64,000 nucleotides of DNA from Gammaproteobacteria bacterium (GTDB lineage Bacteria > Gemmatimonadota > Gemmatimonadetes > Longimicrobiales > Gaopeijiaceae), in the NCBI GenBank assembly GCA_028819075.1, contig JAPPMM010000019.1, positions 1-64,000 of the forward strand. The letters are read 5' to 3'. A program made the translations under genes and the position numbers. Under the pieces are notes generated by a model, which was given only the letters and a program-made list of their open reading frames with translations, was not told where the DNA came from and did not search any database. This document shows, in pieces, positions 76 to 39,157 of this stretch (position 1 is its first letter; the number at the start of each line of letters is the position of its first letter).

Positions 76-2463
76 GTGGACGGCGTGCGCATGGACAACG
101 CAGTCGAGCGCGCCACGTCCGTGAGGACCGACCGGCTGCAGGACATCAATCCCCAGGACATCGACCGGGTGGAGGTCATCCGGGGGGCAGCGGCCGCGAC
201 CCTCTACGGCACCGAAGCCTCCAGCGGCGTGATCCAGATCTTCACCAAGCGGGGACAGACGGGCTCGCCGGTATACGCCTTCTCGACCGACCTCCAACAC
301 CTCGCCTTTCCACGCGACTTCCCGGATAACTGCGGATACAACCGTGCCGAGCATCGGCTCCTCTGCGACAGTCCCTGGGAAGAGAACGCGGTGCTCGGGT
401 ATCACCAGAACTACAACCTGTCGGTTCGCGGCGGGACGCCCGGCCTGCGCTACTACCTGTCCGGGCGCCTGATGGAGGAGCGGAACCCCTCGCCCAACAA
501 CGAACTGGCCAACCAGTCGGTGCGCGCCACCTTCGACTTCACCCATACCGAGAAGCTGACCAGCCAGGTCGGGGTGAATGTCGTGCGGCGCAACCTCCAG
601 ACCGCCACCCCCGGGTGGGGCGACCTCTTCGGCAACCTCATGCTCGGGAATCCGTTGCGCGCCACCGAGACCAATCCTCACGGGGCCTACACGCCCCTGC
701 TGGCCAGCCGCATCACGGAGAACCTCCAGGAGTCCGTCAACACCATGCTCAACGCCTCGCTGGTCTACCAGTGGGCCGAAGGACTCAGCTCCACCCTTCA
801 GATGGGGCACAACTTCATCGACAGCCGCTTCAGCGCGTTCTTCCCCCAAGGCGTGGTCGCGGAGTCGGTCACCGGCTACAAGCAGGTGAGAAACTCGCGC
901 TTCGCCACGACCACGCTGGACTTCAGCACCCACTGGGAGACCCAGATCAGCGACCGGATGGTCGGCAACGTCACGGTCGGCGGCCAGAGCTTCCGCGAGG
1001 TGCAGGCGAACGAGTTCGCGTCCGTGCGCGAGTTCGGGTCGCCCACCCTCAAGACCCTCAGCGGCGGCGCCCAGATCACCGGGGTGAGCGAGGGCTTCGA
1101 GGAGGTCATCAACGCGGGTCTCTTCGTCCAGGGGCAGGTCGGGCTCGACGACCGCCTCTTCCTGACCGGGGGCGTTCGCGCGGACGGCAACTCGGCATTC
1201 GGCGAGGACTTCGGCCTCCAGGTGTACCCCAAGGCGGGTGTGTCCTGGGTGGTCTCCGAGTACGACTTCTGGAACGTCGGCTGGATGAACGAACTCAGGC
1301 TGCGCGCGGCGCTGGGTGCCTCCGGTCTGCAGCCGGGCGCCTTCGACGCCCAGCGCACCTGGAGCCCGAGCAGCAGCGTCATCGGCGGCTACCTTACGCC
1401 CCAGAACCTGGGCAATCCGGAACTCAAGCCCGAGCGTTCGACCGAGATCGAGCTGGCGGTCGAGGCGGGGCTGCTGGACGGCCGCTTCGGCATGGAGCTG
1501 GTGTACTTCAACCAGACCACCGACGATGCGCTGCTTCCGGTGCCGCCCTCGCCCGGAGACGGGTTCACCCGCTCGCAGTTGCGGAACCTGGGCACGCTCA
1601 AGTCCTGGGGGCTCGAACTCACCGCCGACGCGCGCCTGGTGCAGAGCCCCAGCTTTACCTGGGACCTGACGCTCAGCCCCACCTACCTGAAGCAGTGGGC
1701 GGACGACCTGGGCGGGCAGCCCGACCGGCGCCTCGGCAGCCGGCGCCGGTTCCATTCGCTCTACGAGGGGATGTGGCCCGGCATCTGGATCGCCCCCATC
1801 GTCGACCCCAACCAGCCCTACATTCTCTCCGGACCCATCGACGAGATCCGCAGCCGCCGGGACATCGCGCCCAACATCCTGAAGGCGGCCGACGGCACCG
1901 ACTCGCTGGCGGTGATCGGCAGACCCCAGCCCAACTGGACCATCGACATCCGCAGCGCCATGCAGTTCGGGAGCTTCAGCTTCCGCAACATCTTCGAGGC
2001 GGCGGGCGGCTTCATCGTCTCCAACGAGACCGACCACCTGCGCAACGCGCTGGGCAACGGTCCCCTGGTAGCGACGCTCGAGCATACCCTGAACGACCCC
2101 AACGCCAGCGTCGAGGAGAAACAGCGGCTCGTGGACGAGTACGGCCGCAAGCACAACGGCGTCATCTCCAACACGGTCTACCCGGGCGACTATGTGCGCT
2201 GGGCCGAGCTCACCGTCTCCTACCAGCTTCCGGACTCGTTCGCCGAGCGTTTCGCGGCAACGAGCGCGCAGATCAGCGTGGGGGCCAAGAACCTCAAGGT
2301 GTTCAGCGACTACCTGAGTTCGCCCAAGAACGGCTGGATCGACCCCGGCACCCGCGGCATCGAAGCGGGCACCGCCGGCGCCAGCTACTTCACCCAGAAC
2401 GTCGACTACCTCAAGGTGCCGGCTCCCAGACGCCTGGTCTTCTCCCTCAGGGCCCAGTTCTGA
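76..2463 (+). CDS. SusC/RagA-type TonB-linked outer membrane receptor, 5' end missing or broken
   Basis: Outer-membrane TonB-dependent transporter, the usual partner of the SusD lipoprotein that follows. The visible protein starts inside the plug domain (LIYVDGVRMDN, then RVEVIRGAAAATLYGTEASS) and runs through a beta-barrel to an aromatic C-terminal residue (RAQF), typical of outer-membrane barrels. The signal peptide, the carboxypeptidase-regulatory domain, the TonB box and the first part of the plug are absent. In this frame a TGA lies at 34-36, and plug-like codons continue from about 37 (SQRQSPLIYVDG), so GTG 76 is only the first nominal start and is unlikely to be the native one. Either the gene is disrupted here or the first bases of the window are unreliable. 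The substrate is unknown. Identity as a SusC family member is secure. Confidence 0.9.
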   Translation: MDGVRMDNAVERATSVRTDRLQDINPQDIDRVEVIRGAAAATLYGTEASSGVIQIFTKRGQTGSPVYAFSTDLQHLAFPRDFPDNCGYNRAEHRLLCDSPWEENAVLGYHQNYNLSVRGGTPGLRYYLSGRLMEERNPSPNNELANQSVRATFDFTHTEKLTSQVGVNVVRRNLQTATPGWGDLFGNLMLGNPLRATETNPHGAYTPLLASRITENLQESVNTMLNASLVYQWAEGLSSTLQMGHNFIDSRFSAFFPQGVVAESVTGYKQVRNSRFATTTLDFSTHWETQISDRMVGNVTVGGQSFREVQANEFASVREFGSPTLKTLSGGAQITGVSEGFEEVINAGLFVQGQVGLDDRLFLTGGVRADGNSAFGEDFGLQVYPKAGVSWVVSEYDFWNVGWMNELRLRAALGASGLQPGAFDAQRTWSPSSSVIGGYLTPQNLGNPELKPERSTEIELAVEAGLLDGRFGMELVYFNQTTDDALLPVPPSPGDGFTRSQLRNLGTLKSWGLELTADARLVQSPSFTWDLTLSPTYLKQWADDLGGQPDRRLGSRRRFHSLYEGMWPGIWIAPIVDPNQPYILSGPIDEIRSRRDIAPNILKAADGTDSLAVIGRPQPNWTIDIRSAMQFGSFSFRNIFEAAGGFIVSNETDHLRNALGNGPLVATLEHTLNDPNASVEEKQRLVDEYGRKHNGVISNTVYPGDYVRWAELTVSYQLPDSFAERFAATSAQISVGAKNLKVFSDYLSSPKNGWIDPGTRGIEAGTAGASYFTQNVDYLKVPAPRRLVFSLRAQF

Positions 2464-2522
2464 CCGGGCCGAACATGCGGAGGCAATCCATGAACGTGCA
2501 TGAGAGACAAGGGAGTCGACCG

Positions 2523-3920
2523 ATGACAAAGAACGGAAACCCTGATGCCGGAACGATCGCTGGAACACGACGACTGAGGGGTCTCGCGGCCCTCGCTTCG
2601 GGACTGATGCTGACCACGGCCATCGGCTGCAGCGACTTCCTGGAGGTCGACAACCCGGCGAGTCTGCTGGACGAGGACCTGGAGCGCAAGGAGCTTCTGG
2701 GGACGCTGGCCAACACGCCGGAAGGGAACCTCGCCGGTACCTATTCGAGCCTGCTGACGCGACACGGGCTCCTGAGCGATGAACTGTTCCATCCCACCAC
2801 GCAGCTCGAGAACATCGACGCCATGCGGGGCAACCGGCTGGCGTCCAACTCCGCCGTGGAAGGCCACTGGCGCGGGCTCGCCCAGGCGCGCTGGCTCGCG
2901 GACGAGGTGGCCGAACGCCTCTCGGCGGCCGGAGGCAACGACCTGGGCGTCGCGCGCGCGTACTTCTTCGGCGGGATGACCCGCATCACCATGGCGGATC
3001 ACTACAACGTCATCGTGTACGGCGCGGAGGATCAGCTGCGCGGCCCGGTCGACGTGATCGCGGAGTCCGTCGAGCGCTTCCAGCAGGCCGCCCAGGTCGC
3101 GCAATCCGCCGGGGACGCGAATCTCGCCGCGGGCGCGATGGGACAGGTCGCGCGGGCCTATCGCTCGCTCTACTACGAGCGCACCCACCTCCAGGGCCAG
3201 ATGGACCGCAGCCTGTTCGACCAGGCCGAATCGGCGGCCCGGCAAGCGCTTTCGACGGCCCCCGACTACAACGTCTCGCTGCGCTTCGGCGCCCCCGGCG
3301 GCTCCAACTCCGGGGCCTCCCTCGGAGGGCCGTACGGAGGCACCAACCGGATCGACGAGATCTATCTCTTCCTTTCGGACCCCGTGACCGGGGACTGGGA
3401 CCCGCGCATCCCGCACGAGGAAACGACCCGCGAGGAGCCGCTCGGGACCAGCTCCTACAACCTGAAGTATACCGCGCGGGAAACGCCGCTCCCGCTCAGC
3501 CGTGCCGCCGAGGCGATGCTCATCATTGCCGAATCCCGCCTGCTGGCCGGAGACCTCGCGGGCGCGGTCGAGTGGATCAATCACACCCGCGCGGCGGCGA
3601 GGACCCGAACGATGGCCGGGGACTGGGGCGACGCGTCGCGCGGCTGGCCGCCCACAGCACATGCGCTTTCGGATCTGCGGGACTTCGCCAGCATGGACGC
3701 GGGCGAGATCATGGCCCAGCTCCAGCACGAGCGCAGAGCCGAGTTCTGGATGGAGATGCGGCGCTGGCAGGACATGCGCTACTACGAGATCTTCCCCTAC
3801 CGCTGGTTCGACCAGAACAAGGCGATGGGGATTCATCTGCGCTGGCCGCCCTCTCCCGAGGACGTCAACGCCAACCCCAACCTGACCAACGAGATCGCGC
3901 AGCGCCTGTACGTGAACTGA
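2523..3920 (+). CDS. SusD/RagB family nutrient-binding outer membrane lipoprotein
   Basis: Surface lipoprotein that caps a SusC receptor and binds its substrate. The start at ATG 2523 has GGGAG seven bases upstream and gives a lipoprotein signal peptide ending in a lipobox (TTAIGC, Cys 36), followed by SDFLEVDNPASL, a typical mature SusD N-terminus. ATG 2490, preceded by GGAGG, is an alternative start 11 codons longer. The 465-aa length and the C-terminal part (HERRAEFWMEMRRWQDMRYY) fit SusD, where the region following an ERR(A/V)EF motif is conserved. It begins 60 bases after the SusC stop and is followed within 70 bases by the DUF1552 gene, so it probably belongs to one transcript with both. 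The substrate cannot be read from sequence. Confidence 0.9.
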   Translation: MTKNGNPDAGTIAGTRRLRGLAALASGLMLTTAIGCSDFLEVDNPASLLDEDLERKELLGTLANTPEGNLAGTYSSLLTRHGLLSDELFHPTTQLENIDAMRGNRLASNSAVEGHWRGLAQARWLADEVAERLSAAGGNDLGVARAYFFGGMTRITMADHYNVIVYGAEDQLRGPVDVIAESVERFQQAAQVAQSAGDANLAAGAMGQVARAYRSLYYERTHLQGQMDRSLFDQAESAARQALSTAPDYNVSLRFGAPGGSNSGASLGGPYGGTNRIDEIYLFLSDPVTGDWDPRIPHEETTREEPLGTSSYNLKYTARETPLPLSRAAEAMLIIAESRLLAGDLAGAVEWINHTRAAARTRTMAGDWGDASRGWPPTAHALSDLRDFASMDAGEIMAQLQHERRAEFWMEMRRWQDMRYYEIFPYRWFDQNKAMGIHLRWPPSPEDVNANPNLTNEIAQRLYVN

Positions 3921-3987: not shown

Positions 3988-5409
3988 ATGAATTTCATCA
4001 CGGGAAGACACCTTTCGCGCCGCACCTTTCTGAAGGGCGCCGGGGCCTCCGTGGGCCTCCCGCTCCTCGAGGCGATGGTGCCGGCTGGCAAGCCCTGGAG
4101 CGATGCGGCGCAGTCGCAGTTCACGCGCCTGGTGTGCGTCGAGGAGTCGATGGGGTGCGCGGGCGGGAACGACTGGGGGGACGAGCAGAACCTGTTCGCG
4201 CCAGCGACCGCGGGCCGCGACTTCGAGCTCAGGGCGGAGAGCCAGCTCAAGCCGCTGGAAGTCTACCGGGACTACCTCACCATCGTCAGCAACACCGACG
4301 TGCGCATGGCGGAGCCCTACCGGGCCGAGGAGATCGGCGGAGACCACGATCGCTCCACCGCCGTGTTCCTCACCCAGGCCCATCCGCTGCAGACCCAGGC
4401 CGACGTCTACCTGGGGAAGTCCCTCGACCAGGTCCACGCGGACCGCTTCGGACAGGACACCGCGCTGCCCTCGCTCGAGATCACCACGGAGCAGATGGAC
4501 CGGGGGGGCGGGTGCGCCTACAACTACCACTGCGCCTACACGACCACCCTGGCGTGGGCGTCGCCCACCCAGCCGCTTCCCGCCATCCGCGAGCCCCGGC
4601 GGGTGTTCGAGCAGCTGTTCGGGGCCGGCGACTCCCCGGCCGACCGCGCCGTGCGCCTGCGCAACAGCCAGAGCCTGCTCGACTGGGTGCTGGTGGAGCT
4701 GAACGACCTGAAGCGGGAGCTGGGGGCGCTGGACCGGCAGGCGCTCGATCAGTACGCCACCCACATCCGCGAGCTGGAGCGGCGCATCGAGCTGGTGGAG
4801 GCGCAGAACTCGAGCGGTGAGGAGCGGCAAATGCCGGAGGCGCCGTCGGGCATTCCGGACCGCTGGGAAGACCACATGCGGCTGATGTTCGACCTGCAGG
4901 TGCTCGCCCTGCAGGCGGACCTGACGCGGGTCATCACCTTCAAGACCGGCTTCGACCTGCAGAACAGCACCTTCCCCGGCAGCGGCACCAGCAAGTCGTT
5001 CCATGCCGCGTCGCACCACGGCAACGTCCCCTCCGCCGTCATGGAGTTCAACGTCATCAACACGTATCGCCTGGGACAGATGGCGTATTTCCTGGAGAAG
5101 ATGAAGAACACGATGGAGGGCGAGGCTTCGCTGCTCGACAAGACGGCGATCATCTGGGGTTCCCCGATGGGCGACCCGAACCTGCACAACCACCGGCGCT
5201 GCCCGCTCCTGCTCATGGGCCATGCGAACGGCGCGCTGGAGGGCAATCTGCATCTGAGGGCGCCCAAGGGGACGCCCATGGCCAACGTGTTCGTGAGCCT
5301 GATGCAGCGCCTGGGGCACGACGACATGCGCGCCTTCGGCGACAGCACGGGCGAGTTCCCGCTCAGCTTTCCGATGGGCCGGCCGGTGAGCACGCGGAGG
5401 GAGCCATGA
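3988..5409 (+). CDS. DUF1552 family protein, Tat-exported (copy 1)
   Basis: Member of the DUF1552 family of unknown function, common in Planctomycetes, Verrucomicrobia and Gemmatimonadota beside DUF1592-type cytochromes. The 473-aa product starts with a Tat signal (SRRTFLKGAGASVGLPLLEA). GGAGGGA sits 7 bases before the ATG. Conserved features shared with the second copy in this window include CxEE near the mature N-terminus, GGGCxYNYxCxY, a late FHxASHHG motif and IWGSPMGDxNLHNHRRCPL near the end. The His- and Asp-rich C-terminal motifs resemble a metal site, which is my inference. The stop overlaps the start of the ankyrin gene (ATGA at 5406-5409), implying coupled translation. No DUF1592 gene accompanies this copy; SusC/SusD precede it instead. 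Confidence 0.9.
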   Translation: MNFITGRHLSRRTFLKGAGASVGLPLLEAMVPAGKPWSDAAQSQFTRLVCVEESMGCAGGNDWGDEQNLFAPATAGRDFELRAESQLKPLEVYRDYLTIVSNTDVRMAEPYRAEEIGGDHDRSTAVFLTQAHPLQTQADVYLGKSLDQVHADRFGQDTALPSLEITTEQMDRGGGCAYNYHCAYTTTLAWASPTQPLPAIREPRRVFEQLFGAGDSPADRAVRLRNSQSLLDWVLVELNDLKRELGALDRQALDQYATHIRELERRIELVEAQNSSGEERQMPEAPSGIPDRWEDHMRLMFDLQVLALQADLTRVITFKTGFDLQNSTFPGSGTSKSFHAASHHGNVPSAVMEFNVINTYRLGQMAYFLEKMKNTMEGEASLLDKTAIIWGSPMGDPNLHNHRRCPLLLMGHANGALEGNLHLRAPKGTPMANVFVSLMQRLGHDDMRAFGDSTGEFPLSFPMGRPVSTRREP

Positions 5410-7358
5410 GGCTTGGACGCGGGGTCAGGCGGGCCGGCGCGGTCCTCGCGGTCTTTCTGGCCGTGGCTGCGGCGCGCCCGCAGGACGGGCTGCTGGATGC
5501 GGCCAGGCAGGGGGACGCGGACGCCGTGCAGGCGCTGCTCGAGGACGGCGCCGACCCCAACTTCGCGCAGGGCGACGGCCTGACCGCATTGCACCTGGCC
5601 GCCCGCGAGGGTCACCTCGAGATCGTGGATATCCTGATCGGCGCAGGGGCCGAGACCGGGGCGGCGACGCGCATCGGTGAGTATACGCCCCTGCACCTGG
5701 CCGGCGGCGCGGGACACGCGGACGTGGTGGGCGCGCTCCTGGACGCAGGCGCGGACCCGGGGGCGGTGACCACCTCCAGCGGCGTGACCCCGCTCCACCT
5801 GGCGGCAGAGGCGCGCGGCGGCGAAGGCGCGGTTCGGCTGCTGGCCGAGCACGGCGCGCCGGTGAACGCGCGCGAAAAGTCAGCGGGGCAGACGCCCCTG
5901 ATGTTCGCCGCCGCCGCCGGACGGACGGCCTCCGCGGCCGAACTGCTGGAACACGGCGCCGACCCCTCGATCGCCACCGAGGTGGCGGACGTGCTGCGCC
6001 GCATGGCGATCAGCAGGGCGGCCCGGGGGCGTCTGCTGGAGGCGCTGTCCGAGATCCAGCGGGCGACCGAGGGCGGGACCGCGCGGGCGCCCACCGCCGC
6101 CGAGGTGCAGGCCGCGCTCGCGGTTCAGCGGGAGTTTCTCGCCTCCGAGGAGCTGCAGGAGCAGTTGGCCGGCTTCCACCCCGACGACCTTGCCAACGTG
6201 GTGCCCGCGTGGGACACCCCCGCCGGCTACGTCAGCGACAACGAGATCGTCCGGCGGCCCATGTACGAGACCCTGGTCGGCAGGACCGGCGGCATGACCG
6301 CCCTGCTGCACGCCGCCCGCGAGGGCCATCTGGAGGTCGCGCGCGTGCTCCTGGACGGCGGCGCCGACATCGACCAGGTCGCGGGCGACGGGGCCAGCCC
6401 GCTTACCCTCGCCGCGCTCAACGGCCAGTTCGACATGTCGATGCTGCTCATCGAGCGGGGCGCCGACCCCGACCTGGCCACCCACACGGACGGCGTCGCC
6501 CCCCTGTTCGCTGTGCTGCAGACGCAGTGGGCCTTCAAGTTCACCGACCATCCCCACCCGCGCGCGCACGACAACCAGGCCACGACGCACATGGACGTCC
6601 TGCACGCCCTGTTGGAGGCGGGCGCCGACCCCGACGCGCCGATCGGGACACACCTGTGGTACTCGGACTTCCTGCGCGGCAAGCTGGGGCTCAACCTGAC
6701 AGGGGCCACCCCGTTCTGGCGGGCGGCGCTGGCCCAGGACCTGCCCGCCATGAAGGCGCTGGTGGCGCACGGAGCCGACCCGGACATCCCCACCACCTGG
6801 CCGGAACCGGGAATGCGCGAGGGACGCCAGAACGACGGGCGCCTGCAGGAGGATTCCGGGCTGCCCATGATCCCCGAGGGAACCCCCAACATGTACCCCA
6901 TCCACGCCGCGGCGGGGGGCGGGTACATGGGACTCGGCGCCTTCCTGATGAACCACGTTCCGAACAACTTCGTCAACACGGTCAGGTACCTGGTCGAGGA
7001 GCTCGGGGCCGACGTCAATCTCCGCGACTCGTGGGGCTACACCCCCCTGCACTACGCCTCGGTGCGGGGCGGCAACGACCACATCGAGTACCTGGTGGCG
7101 AAGGGGGCCGACGTGGGCGCGATCAGCCGGCTGGGTCAGTCCACCGCGGACATGGCGCGCGGCGGCCGGGCGGGCTACTTCTCGCGGCCGTCCTACCCCG
7201 GGACGGTGGACCTGCTGGTGGGTCTCGGGTCGGAGCTGAGGTGCCTCAACACCCACTTCCGGGGCACCGGCGACTTCTGCCCGGGTGCCGGGGTGGAGGC
7301 GTTCGACACGCAAGGGCCTCCGGGGGAGCAGGATCGGCCGCCGGGCGGAAGGCGGTGA
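5406..7358 (+). CDS. Exported ankyrin-repeat protein (copy 1)
   Basis: 650-aa protein with a Sec signal peptide (GAVLAVFLAVAAA) and about ten ankyrin repeats in three blocks: roughly residues 28-190, 285-465 and 535-600, recognisable by TALHLAAREGHLEIV, TPLHLA and ADPN-type turns. A helical linker (about 190-285) separates the first two blocks. A non-ankyrin patch near 495-530 (MYPIHAAAGGGYMG) is shared with the paralogue at 30037-32304. Two cysteines near the C-terminus (RCLNTHFRGTGDFC) could form a disulfide. The gene is translationally coupled to DUF1552 copy 1. Ankyrin repeats bind proteins, so a scaffold or inhibitor role for the partner enzyme is plausible but is inference. Export to the periplasm or surface is unusual for ankyrin proteins. 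Confidence 0.9.
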   Translation: MRLGRGVRRAGAVLAVFLAVAAARPQDGLLDAARQGDADAVQALLEDGADPNFAQGDGLTALHLAAREGHLEIVDILIGAGAETGAATRIGEYTPLHLAGGAGHADVVGALLDAGADPGAVTTSSGVTPLHLAAEARGGEGAVRLLAEHGAPVNAREKSAGQTPLMFAAAAGRTASAAELLEHGADPSIATEVADVLRRMAISRAARGRLLEALSEIQRATEGGTARAPTAAEVQAALAVQREFLASEELQEQLAGFHPDDLANVVPAWDTPAGYVSDNEIVRRPMYETLVGRTGGMTALLHAAREGHLEVARVLLDGGADIDQVAGDGASPLTLAALNGQFDMSMLLIERGADPDLATHTDGVAPLFAVLQTQWAFKFTDHPHPRAHDNQATTHMDVLHALLEAGADPDAPIGTHLWYSDFLRGKLGLNLTGATPFWRAALAQDLPAMKALVAHGADPDIPTTWPEPGMREGRQNDGRLQEDSGLPMIPEGTPNMYPIHAAAGGGYMGLGAFLMNHVPNNFVNTVRYLVEELGADVNLRDSWGYTPLHYASVRGGNDHIEYLVAKGADVGAISRLGQSTADMARGGRAGYFSRPSYPGTVDLLVGLGSELRCLNTHFRGTGDFCPGAGVEAFDTQGPPGEQDRPPGGRR

Positions 7359-9005: not shown

Positions 9006-9161
9006 CGTCCTGACTCTTCCCCCTGCCGGCGGGCGCGGCCCGCGAAAACGAAACCCTGGGCCCGTTGTGCTGCACCAAGCGTGCCAGCGCCCCGGCCCGT
9101 CGCCTTTCCTCTAACCTATCCGACCATGCCGTCCTTCCCGCAAGTAGACGTGGGCCTGATA

Positions 9162-9175
9162 CCTTGCATGCAAGG
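9162..9175. promoter_or_regulatory. 14-bp perfect palindrome CCTTGCATGCAAGG
   Basis: Perfect palindrome in the 261-bp region (9006-9266) between the divergent DUF4384 and DUF58 genes, an operator-like position for a dimeric regulator serving either gene. I saw nothing else clear in this gap, and no convincing -35/-10 pair. Confidence 0.35.
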
Positions 9176-9266
9176 GCCGGCGGCGGCACCTGCCATACCC
9201 TGGAGCCAAAGAGCGGAACCCGGGCGGGCATGGCATCCTCTCCCACGGTTTTCTAGACTACCCACC

Positions 9267-10220: not shown

Positions 10221-10232
10221 GAGCCGGATGGC

Positions 10233-30036: not shown

Positions 30037-32304
30037 TCAGCAGGACACGCAGTTGTTGTTGTTCTTCGACCCCAGGCGCTCCAGCAGAGCGATGGTGGAC
30101 GGGAACGGCTGCACGCGCTGCACCGGACCGTTGGCCATGTCGGCGGTAGTCTGGCCCCTGCGGCTCAGCACCGTGACGTCGGCGCCGTGCTCCACCAGAT
30201 AGAGCACCAGCTCGTCGTCGCCCCGGGACGCGGCGTGATGGAGCGCGGTGTAGGCGTTGGCGTCGCGCACGTTGACGTCCGCGTTGGCCTCTTCCACCAG
30301 GAACTTGACCGCCGCGAGCCAGTTGTCGGGCACGTAGCGATGCGCGTTGCCCGCGAAGGACTGGCCGTAGCCGACGCCGGAGGCAGCGTGGATCGGGTAG
30401 ATGGCGGGCCCGCCGGTGGGGACGGACGGCACGCCGGAGAGATCGTCGTCGTCGCCCCGTCCATAGCCCTGCTGTGCGGGTTCTTCCTCCTCTTCATCCG
30501 TCTCGCCCTCGGCGTTGGCCAGGCCGGGACCCTCGGCCTCGGCTCCAGCTGCCTCGGTGGCTGGCTCTTCGCTGGCCGGCGTCTCCGTCTCGGACTCGCC
30601 CTCGGCCTCCTCACCTTCAACGGCCTCACCCTCTCCAGCCTCGACGACCGCTTCCTCCGCCGGCGCCGGTTCCGGGGGCGGCGGGGGACGGCGGCGGCGG
30701 CGCTGGGGCGGCTTCATGGTCGGGATGCCGGGATCGGCGCCGTGCTCTTTCAGGAGTCGCATCGCATCCACGTCGAGCGCATAGGCGGCCCTCCAGAACG
30801 GCGTCGCGCCCTGCAGGTTGATGCCGCTGCCGCGGAGCACCCCGAATGTGTACTCCATGAACCAGAGATGGGCCTTCAGGCGCGCGTTGGGATCGGCGCC
30901 GGCTTCCAGCAGGGCATCCAGCACCTCCAGATGGGTCGCGTTCTGCTGCAGATGCTCGGTGGGGTGCGCATAGGACGCCCGCGGCGCCCATTGCCGCTCC
31001 AGCACCGCGAAGAGCGGGGTCGTGCCCGCCTGACTCGCCAGGTTGGGGTCGGCGCCGCGCTCGAGCAGGGTCAGGGCGAGGTCGAACTGACCGTTCACGG
31101 ACGCCATCAGGAGCGGGGAGGTCTGGTCGCCCTCGGAGACCTGGTTGATCTCCGCGCCGGCTTCGAGCAGCGTGAGGGTCGCCTCCACGTGGCCCTGCCG
31201 GATTGCGTGCAGGAGAGGCGTCAATCCGCCCCAGGCGCCCACCATCTGCGCGTAGGACATGGGCCGGGGCTCTTCGTCCGGACGGGGATCGCCGTCCTCG
31301 TCGTCCGCGGATTCGTCCTCGTCTCCCTCGTCGTCCGTGGATTCCTCCTCGTCCCCTTCGGCTTCCTCGGATGCCTCGTCGGCCTCCCCGCTTTCCGCGG
31401 GCTCGCCGGAGTCTTCCTCCGCTTCGGAAGCCGCGTCAGCCTCGGTCCCGGATTCCTCGCCCTCCCCTTCTTCCTCCGCCTCGATCTGCCCTTCCTGGTT
31501 GGCCATGGTGCGCCCGTCGTTCGCGGGATCGGGCACGTCGGGCCACCTGCGCTGGATTTCGCGCGAAGCCTCGATGGCCGCCTGCACCTGGCTGGGGGTG
31601 GGCTGCCACTCCGGACCCCCGCCCTCCTTCTCCTTGAAGTCGGCCAGGAACTCGTTCAGGCGGCGGTCGGCCGCGGCGTCCGCCCGCTCGCGCTCCGCCA
31701 CGTCCACCGACCAGGCCGCCAGCGATAGATCGGCACCGGCTCCGAGCAGCACCTCCAGGGCCGCGACCCGGTTGCTGGCGGCGGCGAAGATGAGGGGGGT
31801 CTGGCCCCATGCGCCCTCGCGCCCGTTCACGTCCGCGCCGGCCTCGACCAGTACCTCGACCACTGCGGGATCGCCGGTGGCCGCCGCCAGGTGGAGCGGC
31901 GTCGCGCCCGAATTGGTCGTGCTCGCGTTGGGGTCGCTGCCCGCATCCAGAAGCACCTCGACCACGGTGGCGCGCGCGCGCCGGGATGCCAGGTGGAGGG
32001 GCGTGTAGTGCCCGATGCGGGTGCCCGCGTCCACACGCGCGCCGGCATAGAGCAGCACGTCCGCGAGTTCGGCGTCGCCGCGCTCGGCGGCCCAGTGGAG
32101 CGCGGTCATGCCGTCGCCCTGGGGCGCATTCACGTCCGCGCCTTCCCGCAACAGGCGCCGCACGGCCTCCAGATCGCCCCGCGCCGCCGCGTCGGCCACG
32201 GGCGCGTCGGACCAGCCGCCGCCCAGCAGCAGCAGCGGCACGATCGCCATCCCCAGCAAGCGCGCCCGCCCGCGAGGGCTTCCCATCGGCCCCGCCGTTT
32301 TCAT
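30037..32304 (-). CDS. Exported ankyrin-repeat protein with acidic linkers (copy 2)
   Basis: 755-aa paralogue of the ankyrin protein at 5406-7358. A Sec signal (LLGMAIVPLLLLGGG) is followed by ankyrin repeats in three blocks: about 38-205, 355-535 and 640-735. Two long Glu/Asp/Ser-rich inserts, about 270-345 (bases roughly 31255-31495) and 545-620, are absent from copy 1. Shared non-ankyrin stretches include HLWFMEYTFG, GATPFWRAAYALD, IYPIHAASGVGY and SRRGQTTADMANG. It ends in an Asn run and CVSC, so a cysteine pair closes the chain. Its start overlaps the DUF1552 stop (ATGA at 32304-32301). The acidic inserts could bind Ca2+ or keep the protein extended; this is inference. Confidence 0.9.
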   Translation of the reverse strand: MKTAGPMGSPRGRARLLGMAIVPLLLLGGGWSDAPVADAAARGDLEAVRRLLREGADVNAPQGDGMTALHWAAERGDAELADVLLYAGARVDAGTRIGHYTPLHLASRRARATVVEVLLDAGSDPNASTTNSGATPLHLAAATGDPAVVEVLVEAGADVNGREGAWGQTPLIFAAASNRVAALEVLLGAGADLSLAAWSVDVAERERADAAADRRLNEFLADFKEKEGGGPEWQPTPSQVQAAIEASREIQRRWPDVPDPANDGRTMANQEGQIEAEEEGEGEESGTEADAASEAEEDSGEPAESGEADEASEEAEGDEEESTDDEGDEDESADDEDGDPRPDEEPRPMSYAQMVGAWGGLTPLLHAIRQGHVEATLTLLEAGAEINQVSEGDQTSPLLMASVNGQFDLALTLLERGADPNLASQAGTTPLFAVLERQWAPRASYAHPTEHLQQNATHLEVLDALLEAGADPNARLKAHLWFMEYTFGVLRGSGINLQGATPFWRAAYALDVDAMRLLKEHGADPGIPTMKPPQRRRRRPPPPPEPAPAEEAVVEAGEGEAVEGEEAEGESETETPASEEPATEAAGAEAEGPGLANAEGETDEEEEEPAQQGYGRGDDDDLSGVPSVPTGGPAIYPIHAASGVGYGQSFAGNAHRYVPDNWLAAVKFLVEEANADVNVRDANAYTALHHAASRGDDELVLYLVEHGADVTVLSRRGQTTADMANGPVQRVQPFPSTIALLERLGSKNNNNCVSC

Positions 32305-33698
32305 GACGTCACCGGCACGGTCAGGGAGAACTCGCCGGTTGCATCCCCGAACGTGACCAGATCCTCGTGGCCGAGCTTGTGCAACAGCGTGGTGAACACA
32401 TTGGCCATCGGCGTGCCGTCCGGGGCCTTCAGATGCAGGTTGCCCTCAAGCTGGCCGTTGGCCCCGCCCAGGATCACCAGCGGGCACCGCCTGTGGTTGT
32501 GCAGGTTCGCATCCCCCATCGGCGAGCCCCAGATGACCATGGACCGGTCCAGCAGGCTCATCTCCCCGTCCATCGTCTCCTGCAGCCGCTCCAGCAGGTA
32601 CGCCAGTTGTCCCGTGCGCCACTGGCAGATCGTGTTGAACTCGAGGATGGCCTCCTCGTTGCCGCCGTGGTGAGAGGCGGGATGGAAGGCCCGGTCCGAA
32701 CCGCTCTCCGGGAACCTGCGGTTGGAAGCGTCCCGTCCCATCTTGAGTGAGGCGACCCGCGTGGCGTCCGTCTCGAAGGCCAGCACCTGCAGGTCGAAGA
32801 GGAGGCGCATGTGCTCCTCGAAGGAGTCGGGCACGCCCGGAGGAGCGCCGGGCAGCTCGCGCGGGGCTCCGCTGGTGTTGCGCTCCTCCACCCGCTCGAT
32901 GCGCCGCTCGATCTCGCGGACGCTGTCCAGATAGCGGTCCACCCGCTGCAGGTCCACCGCGCCCAGCTGGCGCCGCAGGTCGGCCACCTCGCCGGCAACC
33001 CAGTCCAGGATGCTCCCGTGGGTCCGCCGCCGCCGTGCCCGCTCGTCGGTGCTACCGCCGGCCCCGAAGAGCATGTCGAACGCGGCGCGCGGGCTGCGGA
33101 TCATCGGCAGCGGCAGGTCGGGCGACGCCCAACTGATCGAGTCCATGTACGAGCACGAGTAGTTGTAGTCGCAACCGCCCCCCGAGTCCGTGGGCTCGAT
33201 GGAGAGCTGGAGCGAAGGCAGCACCGTGTCCTGCCCGAAGCGCTGGGCGTGCAACTGATCCAGCGAGGTTCCGCAGTAGATGTCGGATCCCTGGGTCTGC
33301 TTCGGATGCGACTGGGTCAGGAACACCGCGCTGGAGCGGAAGTGGTCGCCGCCCACCTCCGGCGGCGCGAAGGCCTCCGCCATGCGCACGTCGGTGTTGC
33401 TGATGATGGTCATGTCGTCACGCCACGGCTCGAGCCCCTTCAGCACGTTGATGTCGCTGAGCTCGAAGTCCCGTCCCTGGGTGACGGGCGCGAAGAGATG
33501 CTGCCTGGCGCCCCACTCGTTGCAGCCGGCGACGCCGTGCACCTCCTCGATGCAGATCAGGCGTGTCGGCTCGCCTTCCGCGCGCCCGCGCGCGATACCG
33601 GCGGGAATCATCGCGTCCAGCAGCGGAAGCGAGAGGGTGGCGCCCGCCCCGCGCAGGAAGGTTCGCCGCGGAAGAGCCTTGCTGGTCAGAAAATGCAT
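32301..33698 (-). CDS. DUF1552 family protein, Tat-exported (copy 2)
   Basis: 465-aa paralogue of the protein at 3988-5409. The Tat signal reads LPRRTFLRGAGATLSLPLLD. Shared motifs include CIEEVHGVAGCNEWG, ISNTDVRMAEA, GGGCDYNYSCSY, FHPASHHGGNEEA and MVIWGSPMGDANLHNHRRCP. The function of DUF1552 is not established; the protein is normally encoded beside DUF1592-type cytochromes, as here, where that gene ends 78 bases upstream. It is translationally coupled to the ankyrin gene downstream. Functional linkage of all three is inferred from this order. Confidence 0.92.
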   Translation of the reverse strand: MHFLTSKALPRRTFLRGAGATLSLPLLDAMIPAGIARGRAEGEPTRLICIEEVHGVAGCNEWGARQHLFAPVTQGRDFELSDINVLKGLEPWRDDMTIISNTDVRMAEAFAPPEVGGDHFRSSAVFLTQSHPKQTQGSDIYCGTSLDQLHAQRFGQDTVLPSLQLSIEPTDSGGGCDYNYSCSYMDSISWASPDLPLPMIRSPRAAFDMLFGAGGSTDERARRRRTHGSILDWVAGEVADLRRQLGAVDLQRVDRYLDSVREIERRIERVEERNTSGAPRELPGAPPGVPDSFEEHMRLLFDLQVLAFETDATRVASLKMGRDASNRRFPESGSDRAFHPASHHGGNEEAILEFNTICQWRTGQLAYLLERLQETMDGEMSLLDRSMVIWGSPMGDANLHNHRRCPLVILGGANGQLEGNLHLKAPDGTPMANVFTTLLHKLGHEDLVTFGDATGEFSLTVPVTS

Positions 33699-33776: not shown

Positions 33777-36236
33777 TCAGTTGAATGTATCCCGGGCCCC
33801 GCTGTTCTCGCCATCGGCGAGCGCCAGTGCCTGCTTCATGCGGAACGCGTCGCTCATCACCACTCCGACGATGAAGGACGACATGCGATAGTCGTTCCGC
33901 TCGGCCTCGCGCGCGATGGCGCGAACGGCAGGCTGGTCCCGATGGTCGATCCCCCGCCCCAGCGCATAGGCCATCAGGCTCTCGGTGAACTGCCGCACCA
34001 GCGGAATGGGGCGCTTGAGCAGGACGCGAGACAGATCCGCCGGGGTCTCGATCTCGGTCCCGTCGTAATAGGTGCTCCGGGTGTCGAGCGGCGTGCCCTC
34101 CTCGCGGATGCGCCACTGGCCGGTCACGTCGAAGTTGTCGAGCGCCAGCCCGATGGGGTCGATGAGCTCGTGACAGGAGGCGCAGTCCGGGTTGTCCCGA
34201 TGGGCCTCCAGCCGCTCGCGCGTGGTCAGGACCTTGCCGTCGCGCGCGCTTGCGGTCTCCTCCAGGTCGGGGATGCCGGGGGGAGGAGGTGGCGGCGGGG
34301 TACCCAGCAGGACTTCCATCACCCACAAGCCGCGCAGCACCGGCGACGTGCGGTTTCCGAGCGAGGTCTGGACCAGCATGCTGCCGTGGCCCAGGATTCC
34401 GCGCCGGCGATCGTCGGGATAGCCCACGCGACGGAAGGCCTCGCCCTGCACGCCCTGGATGCCGTAGTGACGCGCCAGCCGCTCGTTCACGAAGGTGTAG
34501 TCGGCGCTGTACAGCTCCAGCAGGCTCCGGTCCTCGCGGATCAGGTTGTGGAAGAAGAGCTCGCTCTCGCGCCGCATCGCATCGGCGAACTGGCGGCTGT
34601 AGTTGGGGAAGCGGAACGCGTCCGGGCTGACCAGTTCCACGTCCTGCAGGCGCAGCCAGAGTGACGCGAAGCGGGTGGCCAGCGCCTCCGAACGCGGATC
34701 GGCCAGCAGCCGGCGCGCCTGGGCCTCGAGCCGGACCGGATCGGAGAGCGCTCCCTCGCGCGCTGCGGCCACCAGCTCGGCGTCCGGGCCGGCGCCCCAC
34801 AGGAAGAAGGACAGGCGCGCCGCAAGATCTTCGCCTGCGAGCGGATAGATCTCTCCGGGCGCCACATCCCCGGGCTCCCGCTCCATGCGGAAGAGGAAGT
34901 GCGGACTCGAGAGGATCGCCTCGAGCGCCGTCCGCACGCCCGCTTCGAAGCCCCCGTCCTCCGAACCCATCCCGTAGAAGACGAGGAGATCGCTCACCTC
35001 GCTGTCGTTCACGTCGCGGCCGTAGGCTTCCGCGGCGAGCCGGGACACGATCTCGTGGGCGCAGGGCCGCTCCTCGGCGGCGGCCGTGGGCCGGCAGGAG
35101 AAGACCCGCCGCCGGGCGTCGAAATCGGACACGCCCGTGGTGTTGTGCGGCCCTTCGACCGTCAGGCTCATAATGTGCGGGAGCGAAGTGGTCCCGTAGC
35201 TGGTCTCGGTGCCGGTCAGCGACCAGTCGTTGGGGCGGATCAGGTCCTCGTAGGGGCCGTCCATCTGGCGGATGAAGGCAGCCGTGAGGCGGTGCTCGCC
35301 CGCGCGCACGGGGATGGGGTCGGTGCGCACCGGGAAGCCCTTGCGCCCCTGGAAGTCGATGTCGCCCCCGTAGCGCAACAGCGCCACCCGCTCCCCGTTG
35401 ACGGAGATGTCGATGTCGTGGTCGCGCTCGCCCCAGCCCGACATGAAGCTCATCGAGAAGATGTACTCCCCGTCGGCCGGGAAGGAGTGCAGGACGCTCA
35501 CACCTCCGCGGGTGCCGAAGGGCGCCCCTTCGACCCGCTCCCATTCGTGCTGGGACACGGAGGGCGGGTTGCCGTAGGTAACGGACGTGGTGGCCGCGTC
35601 GCGGTCGCCGATGGCGCGGCGCGCGATATCGCTGGCGGCGGCCAGGTAGGCGTCCATCAGGGTGGGGGTGAGCGTCTGGGCCTCGGCGTTGTTGTCGAAG
35701 CTCTCGCTGATGCGGTCGGGCGGCAGCCAGTCCTCCGGGTCGACCGTGAGGCCCAGCAGGTCGTGGATGACGCGGGCGTACTCGGCCCGGTTGAGGCGCT
35801 GGAACGGGCGGGTGCCCGCATACGGGCGGGCGGCCGCCGCCTCGTCCACCACGTCCTCCAGGTACTGCGCCAGCGCGGTGAGGGTGTCCTCGGTGGGGCG
35901 GCGCGAGCCGGGCGGCGGCATCATGCCCGCGCGCAGCTTGCGGATCATGCGCTCGGCAACTTCGGCGTTTTCGTCCGCGCGGGTGACATCGAACCCCTCA
36001 AGCGACAGGTTGCCGCGCATGCGCCGCTCGCTGTGGCAGCGGGTGCAGTAGCGCTCGACGACGTCTTCGACGGGGACGGAGCCCAGATCGGCGGGGAGAA
36101 CCGGATGGGCATCGTCGTATGCGGGATATGCATCCGGGGCAGGCCCATACGTCACGTCGGAGGAGCCGGCGTCGCGCGCTCCCTCCGCGACCAGCAGCAC
36201 ACCCCCCAGCGCCACCGCGGCGGCCAGAACCTTCAT
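33777..36236 (-). CDS. DUF1587/DUF1592/DUF1588/DUF1585 multidomain cytochrome-like protein
   Basis: 819-aa exported protein of the planctomycete-type cytochrome family. The signal peptide is KVLAAAVALGGVLLVAEGA. A c-type heme motif CTRCH is at 64-68, typical of the N-terminal cytochrome module. DUF1587 follows (RPFQRLNRAEYARVIHDLLG), then a carbohydrate-binding-like beta region with GGVSVLHSFPADGEYIF, DUF1592 (AARLSFFLWGAGPD), DUF1588 with a second CxxCH (CASCH, 685-689, in DCASCHELIDPIGLALDNFD) and a C-terminal DUF1585-like end. Translation starts at ATG 36236 behind AAGGAGA. It presumably transfers electrons or oxidises a substrate in the periplasm; the substrate is unknown. It heads the DUF1552-ankyrin set. 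Confidence 0.92.
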   Translation of the reverse strand: MKVLAAAVALGGVLLVAEGARDAGSSDVTYGPAPDAYPAYDDAHPVLPADLGSVPVEDVVERYCTRCHSERRMRGNLSLEGFDVTRADENAEVAERMIRKLRAGMMPPPGSRRPTEDTLTALAQYLEDVVDEAAAARPYAGTRPFQRLNRAEYARVIHDLLGLTVDPEDWLPPDRISESFDNNAEAQTLTPTLMDAYLAAASDIARRAIGDRDAATTSVTYGNPPSVSQHEWERVEGAPFGTRGGVSVLHSFPADGEYIFSMSFMSGWGERDHDIDISVNGERVALLRYGGDIDFQGRKGFPVRTDPIPVRAGEHRLTAAFIRQMDGPYEDLIRPNDWSLTGTETSYGTTSLPHIMSLTVEGPHNTTGVSDFDARRRVFSCRPTAAAEERPCAHEIVSRLAAEAYGRDVNDSEVSDLLVFYGMGSEDGGFEAGVRTALEAILSSPHFLFRMEREPGDVAPGEIYPLAGEDLAARLSFFLWGAGPDAELVAAAREGALSDPVRLEAQARRLLADPRSEALATRFASLWLRLQDVELVSPDAFRFPNYSRQFADAMRRESELFFHNLIREDRSLLELYSADYTFVNERLARHYGIQGVQGEAFRRVGYPDDRRRGILGHGSMLVQTSLGNRTSPVLRGLWVMEVLLGTPPPPPPPGIPDLEETASARDGKVLTTRERLEAHRDNPDCASCHELIDPIGLALDNFDVTGQWRIREEGTPLDTRSTYYDGTEIETPADLSRVLLKRPIPLVRQFTESLMAYALGRGIDHRDQPAVRAIAREAERNDYRMSSFIVGVVMSDAFRMKQALALADGENSGARDTFN

Positions 36237-36478
36237 GACTTCTCCTTGCCGAGCGGGCCGCGGTCCGGCAGCCCCTCCACCCAGGGTCCCCGCCAGGCAC
36301 TCGCAGCCGGACGAGGACAACCCTTCAATGTAACGATGTGCCGCATGCGGAACAGCCCGCCTGGAACCGACCTTGCCGTAGCGGTCCGCGTCAGCTCGTC
36401 AGGCCGCTTGCCGGGGTCTCCGGCAGCCGGTCTTATCCTACGATGGTCCTGACGTTGCGGCTAAAGGGGAGGCGGACG
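36237..36478. promoter_or_regulatory. Divergent intergenic region, 242 bp
   Basis: Separates the DUF1592 gene (minus) from the TonB receptor (plus), so it must hold promoters for both. It contains the perfect 10-bp palindrome CCGCATGCGG at 36341-36350 and a short GCCGG/CCGGC hairpin close to the receptor start. No convincing -35/-10 pair was found. Confidence 0.35.
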
Positions 36479-39157
36479 ATGGGTGCCTTGCACGGGCTCC
36501 AGGTGAGTTCCCTGTTTGCGCTCGTTCTCACGGCGGTTCAACTGGAAGCCCAGGAGGGCGCCATCGCCGGCCGAGTGACGGACATGGAGACCGGCGCGCC
36601 GCTGGCGTCCGCCGCGGTGGAGGTTCTGGGTGCGGCGGCCACCTCGTCGGTGACCGACGCCGCCGGCGAATTCCGCGTCTCCGTGCCGGCTGGCACCCAT
36701 TCCCTCCTGGTCACCCTCATCGGGCACGAGTCCTCGCGCACGGACGGTGTAACCGTGGTGGCCGGAGAAACGGCATCGGTCGCCATCCAGCTCCGCTCCC
36801 GCGCGCTCGTCCTCAACCAACTGGTCGTGACCGTATCTCGCCGGGAGGAGAAGGAGCTCGACGCCCCGGCCTCCGTCTCCACCCTGACCAACCAGCAGAT
36901 CTCGCGCATCATCGCGCGAACCCCCGCGGACCACGTCAGGACGCTCCCGGGAGTCGACCTCGCCAGCACCGGTCTCACCCAGAGCTACGCGGTCGTGCGC
37001 GGCTTCAACAACGTGGCCTCCGGACGGCTGCTCAGCATAGTCGACAACCGCTATGCGCGCATACCGGCGCTCAGGATCAACGCCATCAACATGATCCCGA
37101 CCACCGACATGGACATCGAGCGCATCGAGCTGGCGCGCGGCCCGGGCGCGGCGCTCTACGGGCCCAACGCGGCCGAGGGCGTGATGCACATCATCACCTG
37201 GTCGCCGATCGACCGGCCGGGGACGACCGTCACGCTCGGCGGCGGCGAGAGGTCGGTCGTGCAGTTCCTGCTGCGCAGCGCGCACTCGGTCTCCGACCGG
37301 TTCGGCTTCAAGGTGTCGGGCCAGTATCTCCGCGGCGAAGACTGGGAGTACGAGGACCCGTGGGAGGTGCAGGCGCGCACGGAGGAGCCCGACCATCCGC
37401 GCATCGGGATCCGCAACCCGCTCAACGAGCGCTTTTTCGGCGACGTGCGGGCGGACTATCGCTTCGCGGACGACGGCGAGTTCATCGTCTCGGGCGGACT
37501 CAACAACTCCCTCAGCAGCATCAACCTCACCGCCATCGGCTCCTCCCAGACCCACGACTGGCAGTACCGCTACACCCAGGCGCGGCTGCTGAAGGGACGC
37601 TTCTTCGGGCAGTTCTTCCTCAATCAGACGCATTCGGGCCACAACAGCTACCTGCTGCGCAGCGGGGATCTCATCGTCGACCGCTCGCGCACCATGGCCG
37701 CCCAGCTTCAGCACGGCCTGGATCTCGGCACCCGCCAGAGCTTCACCTACGGGATCGACTGGCAGCGCATCGAGCCCCGCTCCCAGGGCACCATCTACGG
37801 GCGCAACGAAGACGACGACGTCCTCGTGGAGGCGGGCGCCTACCTGCACTCCGAGACGCGGCTCGGAAGCCGATTCGACCTGGTGACCGCGTTTCGGGTC
37901 GACGATCACAACCGCCTGACCGGCCTGAACTTCTCGCCGCGGGCCGCGCTCGTCTTCCGTCCCGCCGAAGGCCACAACCTGCGCCTGACCTACAATCGCG
38001 CCTTCGCGAACCCCTCCACGTCGGCGCTCTTCCTCGACATCGCTTCGGGCAGGCTGCCGATCGTCCCGGGCATCGGCTACACATTGCGCGCCTTCGGCGT
38101 CCCGGGCGACGGCATGAGCTTCTCGGACCGCTGCTCCGGCGGGTTGATGGACTACTGCATGCGATCGCCCTTCATGCCGGGCCAGCTCCCCGCAAACGCC
38201 GCGCCGTTCTGGGACGCGCTGGTGACGCAGTTCGCGCCGGAGATGCTGCACCCGCTCCTGATGGGGCCAGGGAATCGCCCCGGCGATCCGGCGCTGGGCA
38301 CGGTCTTGCGGCGCTTCGACCCGAACGCGCTTGGCGTCGAGGGTGGCGACATCTTCCCCCTCGATCCGGGACCAAGAGCGGTCCCTCCCCTCGTCGCGAC
38401 CACCTTCAATACGATCGAGGCCGGGTACAAGGGGCTGATCCAGGACCGTGTGAGGCTGGCCGCCGACGTGTATTACGCCAATGTCGAGAACTTTGTCGGC
38501 GCCCTGAAGGTGGAGTCGCCCAACGTCTTCCTCGACCCGGCCTCGGCCGGCGCGTTCCTGCAGAGCCGGCTCGGCCCGCTGGTTGAGGCGGGGCTGGTCA
38601 CACCCGGGCAGATGACCGAACTGGCCGCGGGGCTCGTGTCGGTGCCGCTGGGAGTGGTCACGCCGGACGGGTTCGACGTGCATGACATGGTCTTCACCAG
38701 CCGGAATTTCGGATCGGCGAGCTACTGGGGAGCCGACTTCTCGGCGCAGTACCTCGTCTCCGACCGGGTCAGCCTGACCGCGGGGTATTCGTTCCAGAAC
38801 ACGGATTGCTTCGACTTCGACGACGACGGCCACTGCCCCGGCCCGGACGACCTCGCCCTCAACGCTCCCAGCCACAAGGGCGCCCTCGGCTTCGCCTACA
38901 CCGACCGCGCCGCGGGATTCACTTTCGACGGGCGCTGGCGCCTTTCCGACGCCTTCGAGATGAGTTCGGGCGTCTTCAGCGGGCGCGTGGATGCCTACCA
39001 GGTCGTGGACGTCACAGCCGGTTATCTGCTTCCATTTCAAACAGATACGCGCGTTGAGTTCACCGTCTACAACGCCCTGGACAACCTGCACCAGGAATTC
39101 GTGGGCGCTCCGGAGCTGGGCAGGCTGGCGCTCGTGAGGGTACGCTACGACTTCTGA
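36479..39157 (+). CDS. TonB-dependent receptor with carboxypeptidase-regulatory-like domain
   Basis: 892-aa outer-membrane receptor. ATG 36479 has GGGGAGG six bases upstream and starts the signal peptide (SSLFALVLTAVQLEAQ). A carboxypeptidase-regulatory-like domain spans about 25-110 (GAIAGRVTDMETGAPLASAA). The plug domain starts with VTVSRREEKELDAPASVSTL and contains RIELARGPGAALYGPNAAEG. The barrel ends in RVRYDF, an aromatic outer-membrane signature. Unlike the SusC at the window start it lacks a SusD partner. It diverges from the DUF1592 cytochrome gene, suggesting uptake of a related substrate. The plug and barrel look intact. Confidence 0.93.
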   Translation: MGALHGLQVSSLFALVLTAVQLEAQEGAIAGRVTDMETGAPLASAAVEVLGAAATSSVTDAAGEFRVSVPAGTHSLLVTLIGHESSRTDGVTVVAGETASVAIQLRSRALVLNQLVVTVSRREEKELDAPASVSTLTNQQISRIIARTPADHVRTLPGVDLASTGLTQSYAVVRGFNNVASGRLLSIVDNRYARIPALRINAINMIPTTDMDIERIELARGPGAALYGPNAAEGVMHIITWSPIDRPGTTVTLGGGERSVVQFLLRSAHSVSDRFGFKVSGQYLRGEDWEYEDPWEVQARTEEPDHPRIGIRNPLNERFFGDVRADYRFADDGEFIVSGGLNNSLSSINLTAIGSSQTHDWQYRYTQARLLKGRFFGQFFLNQTHSGHNSYLLRSGDLIVDRSRTMAAQLQHGLDLGTRQSFTYGIDWQRIEPRSQGTIYGRNEDDDVLVEAGAYLHSETRLGSRFDLVTAFRVDDHNRLTGLNFSPRAALVFRPAEGHNLRLTYNRAFANPSTSALFLDIASGRLPIVPGIGYTLRAFGVPGDGMSFSDRCSGGLMDYCMRSPFMPGQLPANAAPFWDALVTQFAPEMLHPLLMGPGNRPGDPALGTVLRRFDPNALGVEGGDIFPLDPGPRAVPPLVATTFNTIEAGYKGLIQDRVRLAADVYYANVENFVGALKVESPNVFLDPASAGAFLQSRLGPLVEAGLVTPGQMTELAAGLVSVPLGVVTPDGFDVHDMVFTSRNFGSASYWGADFSAQYLVSDRVSLTAGYSFQNTDCFDFDDDGHCPGPDDLALNAPSHKGALGFAYTDRAAGFTFDGRWRLSDAFEMSSGVFSGRVDAYQVVDVTAGYLLPFQTDTRVEFTVYNALDNLHQEFVGAPELGRLALVRVRYDF

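Follow-up and report, generated by a model that had tools for sequence, protein, structure and literature searches.

Organization of the locus

The window analysed here, a stretch of 64,000 nucleotides (nt) that opens contig JAPPMM010000019.1 of a Gemmatimonadota genome (assembly GCA_028819075.1), contains two copies of a gene pair in which a DUF1552 gene is followed by a gene encoding an exported ankyrin-repeat protein. In copy 1, located on the plus strand, the DUF1552 gene (3988..5409) encodes a protein of 473 amino acids (aa) that matches PF07586 with 259 bits (cut-off 30) and carries a Tat-type signal (RRTFLKG) at its N-terminus, which the Pfam TAT_signal profile scores at 20.9 bits, just under the cut-off of 22.7. 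The ankyrin gene (5406..7358) encodes 650 aa with a hydrophobic N-terminus and six stretches assigned to Ank Pfam families. The stop codon of the first gene and the start codon of the second share the sequence ATGA, and GGAG-type ribosome sites precede both starts (3988 and 5406). An earlier examination of the window from its letters alone (the sequence-only reading) had proposed this export signal, this partner and this overlap, and all of them were found. The same is true of the paralogous repeat that it placed at 30037-33698 on the minus strand, where a DUF1552 gene (32301..33698; PF07586, 279 bits), whose product is 59% identical to that of copy 1, again shares ATGA with its ankyrin gene (30037..32304; Ank Pfam families). 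Both window DUF1552 proteins contain a HxxSHH motif, as HAASHH and HPASHH. The ankyrin protein of copy 2 ends in a CxxC motif (NNNNCVSC) and bears two long Glu/Asp-rich inserts between its repeats; the corresponding linkers of its relatives are short and variable.

Ahead of copy 2 lies a complete gene (33777..36320, minus strand) for a PSCyt3/DUF1592 dihaem protein, which matches PSCyt1, PSD3, PSD5, PSD4, PSCyt3 and PSD2 and includes an internal domain resembling a carbohydrate-binding module (CBM). This third gene of the copy-2 module had not been mentioned in the sequence-only reading; its start may perhaps be at 36236 instead of 36320. A TonB-dependent receptor gene (36338..39157, plus strand; PF00593 and Plug), the true start of which is probably further in, is divergent from the module. 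Upstream of the copy-1 DUF1552 gene there is no PSCyt3 gene. This place is taken by an adjacent SusC-SusD pair (76-3920), as is found in polysaccharide utilisation loci, made up of a SusC-type TonB-dependent receptor (76..2463, plus strand; PF00593 and Plug) and a SusD-family lipoprotein-like gene (2445..3920, plus strand; PF07980) of uncertain exact start. The SusC frame is open to the start of the contig, with which the window begins, and the 5′ end of the gene has probably been cut off.

A three-gene module repeated across the genome

The 4.4-Mb genome contains 12 DUF1552 genes, 12 DUF1592 genes and about 15 ankyrin genes, and a same-strand ankyrin gene lies directly behind DUF1552 in 12 of 12 cases. 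Because 12 of the ~15 ankyrin genes in a genome of this size occupy that position, chance pairing is excluded. Relative to the stop codon of DUF1552, the ankyrin start is found at about -4 to +71 nt, its placement being only approximate in two of the 12 modules, and an overlap of exactly 4 nt is not the rule among them. PSCyt3 is located directly upstream of DUF1552 in ten of the 12 modules, copy 2 included. The usual unit is composed of three genes, encoding the DUF1592/PSCyt3 dihaem protein, DUF1552 and the ankyrin protein, both here and at nearly all the loci sampled elsewhere, which contradicts the initial idea of a two-gene system apart from DUF1592. The two modules that lack PSCyt3 (copy 1 of the window and a copy on contig C24) are both directly preceded by SusC-SusD, and in a third module, on contig C28, SusC-SusD is located downstream; the genome has 17 SusD genes. 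The placement of SusC/SusD ahead of the pair, also part of the sequence-only reading, is right for copy 1, and the SusC/SusD-led variant is in the minority (2/12). The observed gene pair is very likely one copy of a widespread and conserved exported module, PSCyt3/DUF1592-DUF1552-ankyrin.

One DUF1592 gene, at 140354-140737 of contig C59 (L022), has no DUF1552 neighbour and lies ~1.3 kb from a contig end. Long frames that might have represented DUF1552-ankyrin fusions were followed up and corresponded to upstream read-through of separate genes; no fusion was found among them.

Occurrence in the phylum and in other phyla

Within the phylum, PF07586 was detected in 45 of 121 genomes and the ankyrin-family profile in exactly those 45 (Fisher 2.8e-34, a value that overstates the number of independent events because the genomes are related). 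The threshold of this profile (E <= 1e-40) was chosen by the analyst, and up to 10 candidates were scored per genome. Among the 150 best ankyrin matches of the phylum, 117 had a listed DUF1552 gene upstream, and the 20 loci fetched from the remaining 33 all showed DUF1552 and PSCyt3 upstream. A sample of 40 DUF1552 loci gave a similar picture, with the ankyrin gene directly downstream in 36 and within 4 kb in 39.

The search was extended to species genomes of other phyla through 80 loci titled Acidobacteriota, Gammaproteobacteria, Acidimicrobiia, Isosphaeraceae and others. Leaving out the DUF1552 genes cut by a contig end, an ankyrin gene was adjacent to 82 of 86 DUF1552 genes (located downstream, or divergent from PSCyt3, or no more than 4 kb away), a proportion that is biased upward because the query has an ankyrin gene of its own and these loci are its closest relatives. 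When DUF1552 genes were sampled by family score from 25 of the same genomes, the ankyrin gene was adjacent to 29 of 40. In controls from the same superfamily, taken with shorter flanks, an ankyrin frame was nearby in 0/20 DUF1501 genes and 1/20 sulfatases. Enrichment of ankyrin genes beside DUF1552 outside this genome had been set beforehand as the test of the association, and it proved to be strong within the phylum and in other phyla. The dedicated exported ankyrin partner, the central claim of the sequence-only reading, is right and general. The gene set is carried by bacteria of several phyla, and some genomes contain dozens of copies. The open-access papers searched contained neither a description of such a partner, which agrees with the novelty assigned to it at the outset, nor a link of DUF1552 or DUF1592/'planctomycete cytochrome' with ankyrin.

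Environmental bacteria are rich in PSCyt/PSD and DUF1552 genes, with up to 40 DUF1552 genes per genome. Counts of 40, 36 and 34 were recorded in genomes titled Vicinamibacterales (L065, G127), Acidobacteria (L050, G121) and Vicinamibacteria (L084, G133), respectively.

Divergence of the paired proteins

For the 12 pairs of the genome, the distances between DUF1552 proteins and those between ankyrin proteins were correlated at 0.79 (2000 permutations, p 0.0005), compared with 0.56 for DUF1552-PSCyt3 and 0.32 for ankyrin-PSCyt3. This difference suggested that each DUF1552 keeps its own ankyrin. Over all 130 DUF1552-ankyrin pairs the correlation rose to 0.93, a value to which shared descent contributes. 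A specific partnership between DUF1552 and the ankyrin protein is likely.

The class-A ankyrin family, which is that of the phylum, terminates in a NN..CxxC tail in 60 of 64 members by a strict pattern and in two more with short extensions. Copy 1 of the window and its nearest paralogue (contig C52) have a variant C-terminus, with a C...THF..TGDFC segment instead of this tail, and the class-B ankyrins (Acidobacteriota and others) are without CxxC. Further, 125 of the 163 module ankyrins carry a GATPFWxA-like signature that none of the three non-module ankyrin frames tested in the genome has, which points to one ancestral partner.

Fold and sequence of DUF1552

An AlphaFold model of DUF1552 copy 1, built with 69 aligned sequences (pLDDT 87.6), found its best structure matches exclusively in the alkaline-phosphatase superfamily, with Z 16.2 to 5i5h and choline sulfatase over 240-265 residues and NPPs, LtaS and YejM close behind. 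Profile comparison related DUF1552 to DUF1501 (E 1.9e-05) and DUF1501 to the sulfatases (E 1.8e-07). When the profiles of DUF1552 and the sulfatases were compared directly, they matched only weakly (E 0.019); the connection between the two is drawn from the fold and from DUF1501 as an intermediate. The window DUF1552 protein gave no match to Pfam Sulfatase, and a sequence search of solved structures returned only insignificant matches for DUF1552 and none for PSCyt3. Sulfatases, DUF1501 and DUF1552 share an invariant residue placed nine positions before the T of an LTG/LTQ-like motif. In sulfatases this residue is the Cys converted to formylglycine (C49 to T58, alignment A7), whereas it is a His in DUF1552 (H120, before T129) and also, with the same spacing, in DUF1501. 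The sulfatase SDNG sequence was aligned, weakly, to SPMG of the window DUF1552, in which neither the CxPxR formylglycine motif nor the Asp-Asn metal ligands were found. DUF1552 has, according to the model, the superfamily fold, but it is not a canonical sulfatase.

The haem protein and its links to carbohydrates

The PSCyt3 protein has haem-type domains with CxxCH. In the model of copy 2 (pLDDT 82.4), residues 214-365 form a CBM36/6/35-like sandwich (Z up to 9.5) between the cytochrome/DUF1587 part and the DUF1595/DUF1592 part of the protein, and it was essentially this domain that the structure search covered. Genes for PSCyt3 usually adjoin a family of unknown genes, and a function in periplasmic carbohydrate use has been proposed for them (He et al., 2017; PMC5615132). 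The PSCyt3/PSD pairs of Verrucomicrobia and Planctomycetes described in that work resemble the present module in the location of PSCyt3 beside a gene of an unknown family, in the many copies per genome and in the proposed periplasmic carbohydrate role. They differ in that no ankyrin partner was described for them, whereas the present module includes ankyrin as a third gene, and PSCyt3 has been lost from copy 1. A second parallel comes from Cbp2D of Cellvibrio japonicus, a secreted protein in which DUF1587 and two CxxCH domains are joined to a carbohydrate-binding module and whose X183 domain reduces lytic polysaccharide monooxygenases (LPMOs) (PMC8981238); Cbp2D has an important role in growth on insoluble cellulose (PMC12542752). 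In contrast to the CBM36/6/35-like fold found here, its module is a CBM2, and no DUF1552 or ankyrin partner has been described for it.

Proposed function and alternative explanations

These results are best accommodated by a periplasmic glycan-processing module in which the ankyrin protein is the dedicated partner of DUF1552, a full account whose chances of being right are about even. The site of action of all three proteins would be the periplasm or the cell surface, and their substrate a glycan or a glycoside-like compound. DUF1552 would be a metal-dependent enzyme of the alkaline-phosphatase superfamily, in which a His-rich site (HxxSHH, DxNxHNH) replaces the formylglycine and the Asp-Asn site of sulfatases. 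PSCyt3 would bind the substrate and move electrons, and the co-evolving ankyrin protein would serve DUF1552 as a scaffold or maturation subunit, in parallel to AnkB, which supports the periplasmic catalase KatB. Copy 1 (3988-7358) is devoid of PSCyt3, and here the SusC/SusD proteins encoded in the same gene run may import the substrate or the products. The sequence-only reading had suggested a part in substrate uptake or processing; this is plausible, given the SusCD genes, the CBM-like domain, the sulfatase fold and the esterases and glucoamylase-like protein encoded near ankyrin-less DUF1552 genes. The certainty of these statements decreases from the conserved module, through the specific DUF1552-ankyrin partnership, to glycan processing in the periplasm, which is plausible; that the module processes sugar polymers outside the cytoplasm is probable. 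As a precedent for the proposed partnership, PMC7567364 cites the pairs AnkB-KatB (Pseudomonas aeruginosa, periplasmic), Cj1386-KatA (Campylobacter) and ank-katE (Leptospira), in which an ankyrin protein is encoded beside an enzyme gene and needed for full enzyme activity. In those pairs the partner is a catalase, whereas the gene adjoining ankyrin in the window is DUF1552, with a sulfatase fold.

Several observations weigh against this account. The genome contains at most one sulfatase match, a weak one, and no LPMO was found in it. The sulfatase nucleophile and one metal-ligand pair appear, from the alignments, to be replaced, so that DUF1552 might have a binding and not a catalytic function. 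In addition, 11 of the 40 DUF1552 genes sampled by family score in other phyla, including all four from the Isosphaeraceae genome, have no ankyrin neighbour, and ankyrin is therefore not needed by every DUF1552. An ankyrin neighbour was absent at all six loci (L155-L158, L163 and L164) of one Isosphaeraceae and one other genome. Among the genes found beside ankyrin-less DUF1552 genes are some for esterases (carbohydrate esterases), for a glucoamylase-like and an FGE-type protein and, in one case, for a leucine-rich-repeat protein.

Among the alternatives, the ankyrin protein could mature the haem protein PSCyt3 by delivering haem or assisting in assembly, in the way Cj1386 acts on KatA, with DUF1552 as merely another member of the operon. 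PSCyt3 is indeed a CxxCH haem protein of the same gene run and the terminal CxxC is conserved in class-A ankyrins, but class-B ankyrins are missing this motif, the DUF1552-ankyrin pair is kept in two of the 12 modules without an adjacent PSCyt3, and ankyrin distances track those of DUF1552 and not those of PSCyt3; this explanation is considered unlikely. Mere co-transcription, in which an inherited operon order holds together proteins that do not interact, would account for the fact that gene order within the phylum is kept mostly by descent. It is harder to reconcile with modules that have been duplicated and scattered over 12 places of this genome without ever losing the ankyrin gene, with paralogues that co-diverge, and with an association that persists while the arrangement varies between phyla (downstream, divergent, convergent), and its probability is put at a rather low level. 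Modelled on Cbp2D and its reduction of LPMOs, PSCyt3 might donate electrons to such enzymes while DUF1552 and ankyrin support the redox chain. No LPMO_10 gene was found in this genome, and only one of the family's 38 genomes has one; a coupling to LPMOs was discarded for the organism, and this explanation is highly improbable.

Two further readings were given very little credence. In some polymorphic toxin systems the immunity function is performed by ankyrin repeats (PMC3482391), and the pair might represent a toxin-immunity or other conflict system. However, no toxin or secretion domain was found in DUF1552, which contains only PF07586 and the Tat signal and has no PADLOC match, the PADLOC matches of the ankyrin proteins are generic repeat matches, and, in contrast to polymorphic systems, the two genes are conserved to a similar degree and in constant order from one phylum to another. 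The idea that the ankyrins are eukaryote-like, host-directed effectors that lie beside DUF1552 by accident draws on the common use of high ankyrin numbers as a sign of host association (PMC3932732), but it conflicts with the exact association in 45 genomes, with its presence in several phyla, including metagenome bins from soil and groundwater, and with the co-divergence of both proteins. Since 12 of the ~15 ankyrin genes of this genome belong to the module, caution is required when such counts are taken to indicate host association.

The idea of a glycan-processing module can be carried further. Within the alkaline-phosphatase superfamily, DUF1552 and DUF1501 could constitute a new catalytic class that has an invariant His in place of formylglycine. 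DUF1552 would act on glycans jointly with the dihaem protein and its CBM and with an ankyrin subunit that is obligatory, the terminal CxxC of the latter taking part in metal or electron transfer; such a new kind of modular machine for glycan processing would reach up to ~40 copies per genome. This extended version is speculative and has a small chance of being correct. A conserved, co-diverging exported ankyrin partner, together with the fold assignment, provides concrete handles on DUF1552 function.

Additional observations

At one ankyrin-less locus (L158:2951-3886, in the genome titled Isosphaeraceae), an FGE/SUMF1-type gene (PF03781) follows DUF1552, although DUF1552 seems to be without a formylglycine Cys. 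A DUF1552 gene close to the class of the window was also found in IMG/VR viral contigs (L130:4998-6368; also L131 and L132), with neither PSCyt3 nor ankyrin nearby, among phage-type genes such as those for endonuclease VII-like and polynucleotide-kinase-like proteins. Finally, in relation to the glycoside hydrolases, lyases or sulfatases of SusCD polysaccharide utilisation loci, the contig of copy 1 opens inside SusC, and the genes examined downstream of the module, located at 8343-12191 of the window beyond a minus-strand gene, encode DUF58, BatA and VWA proteins.

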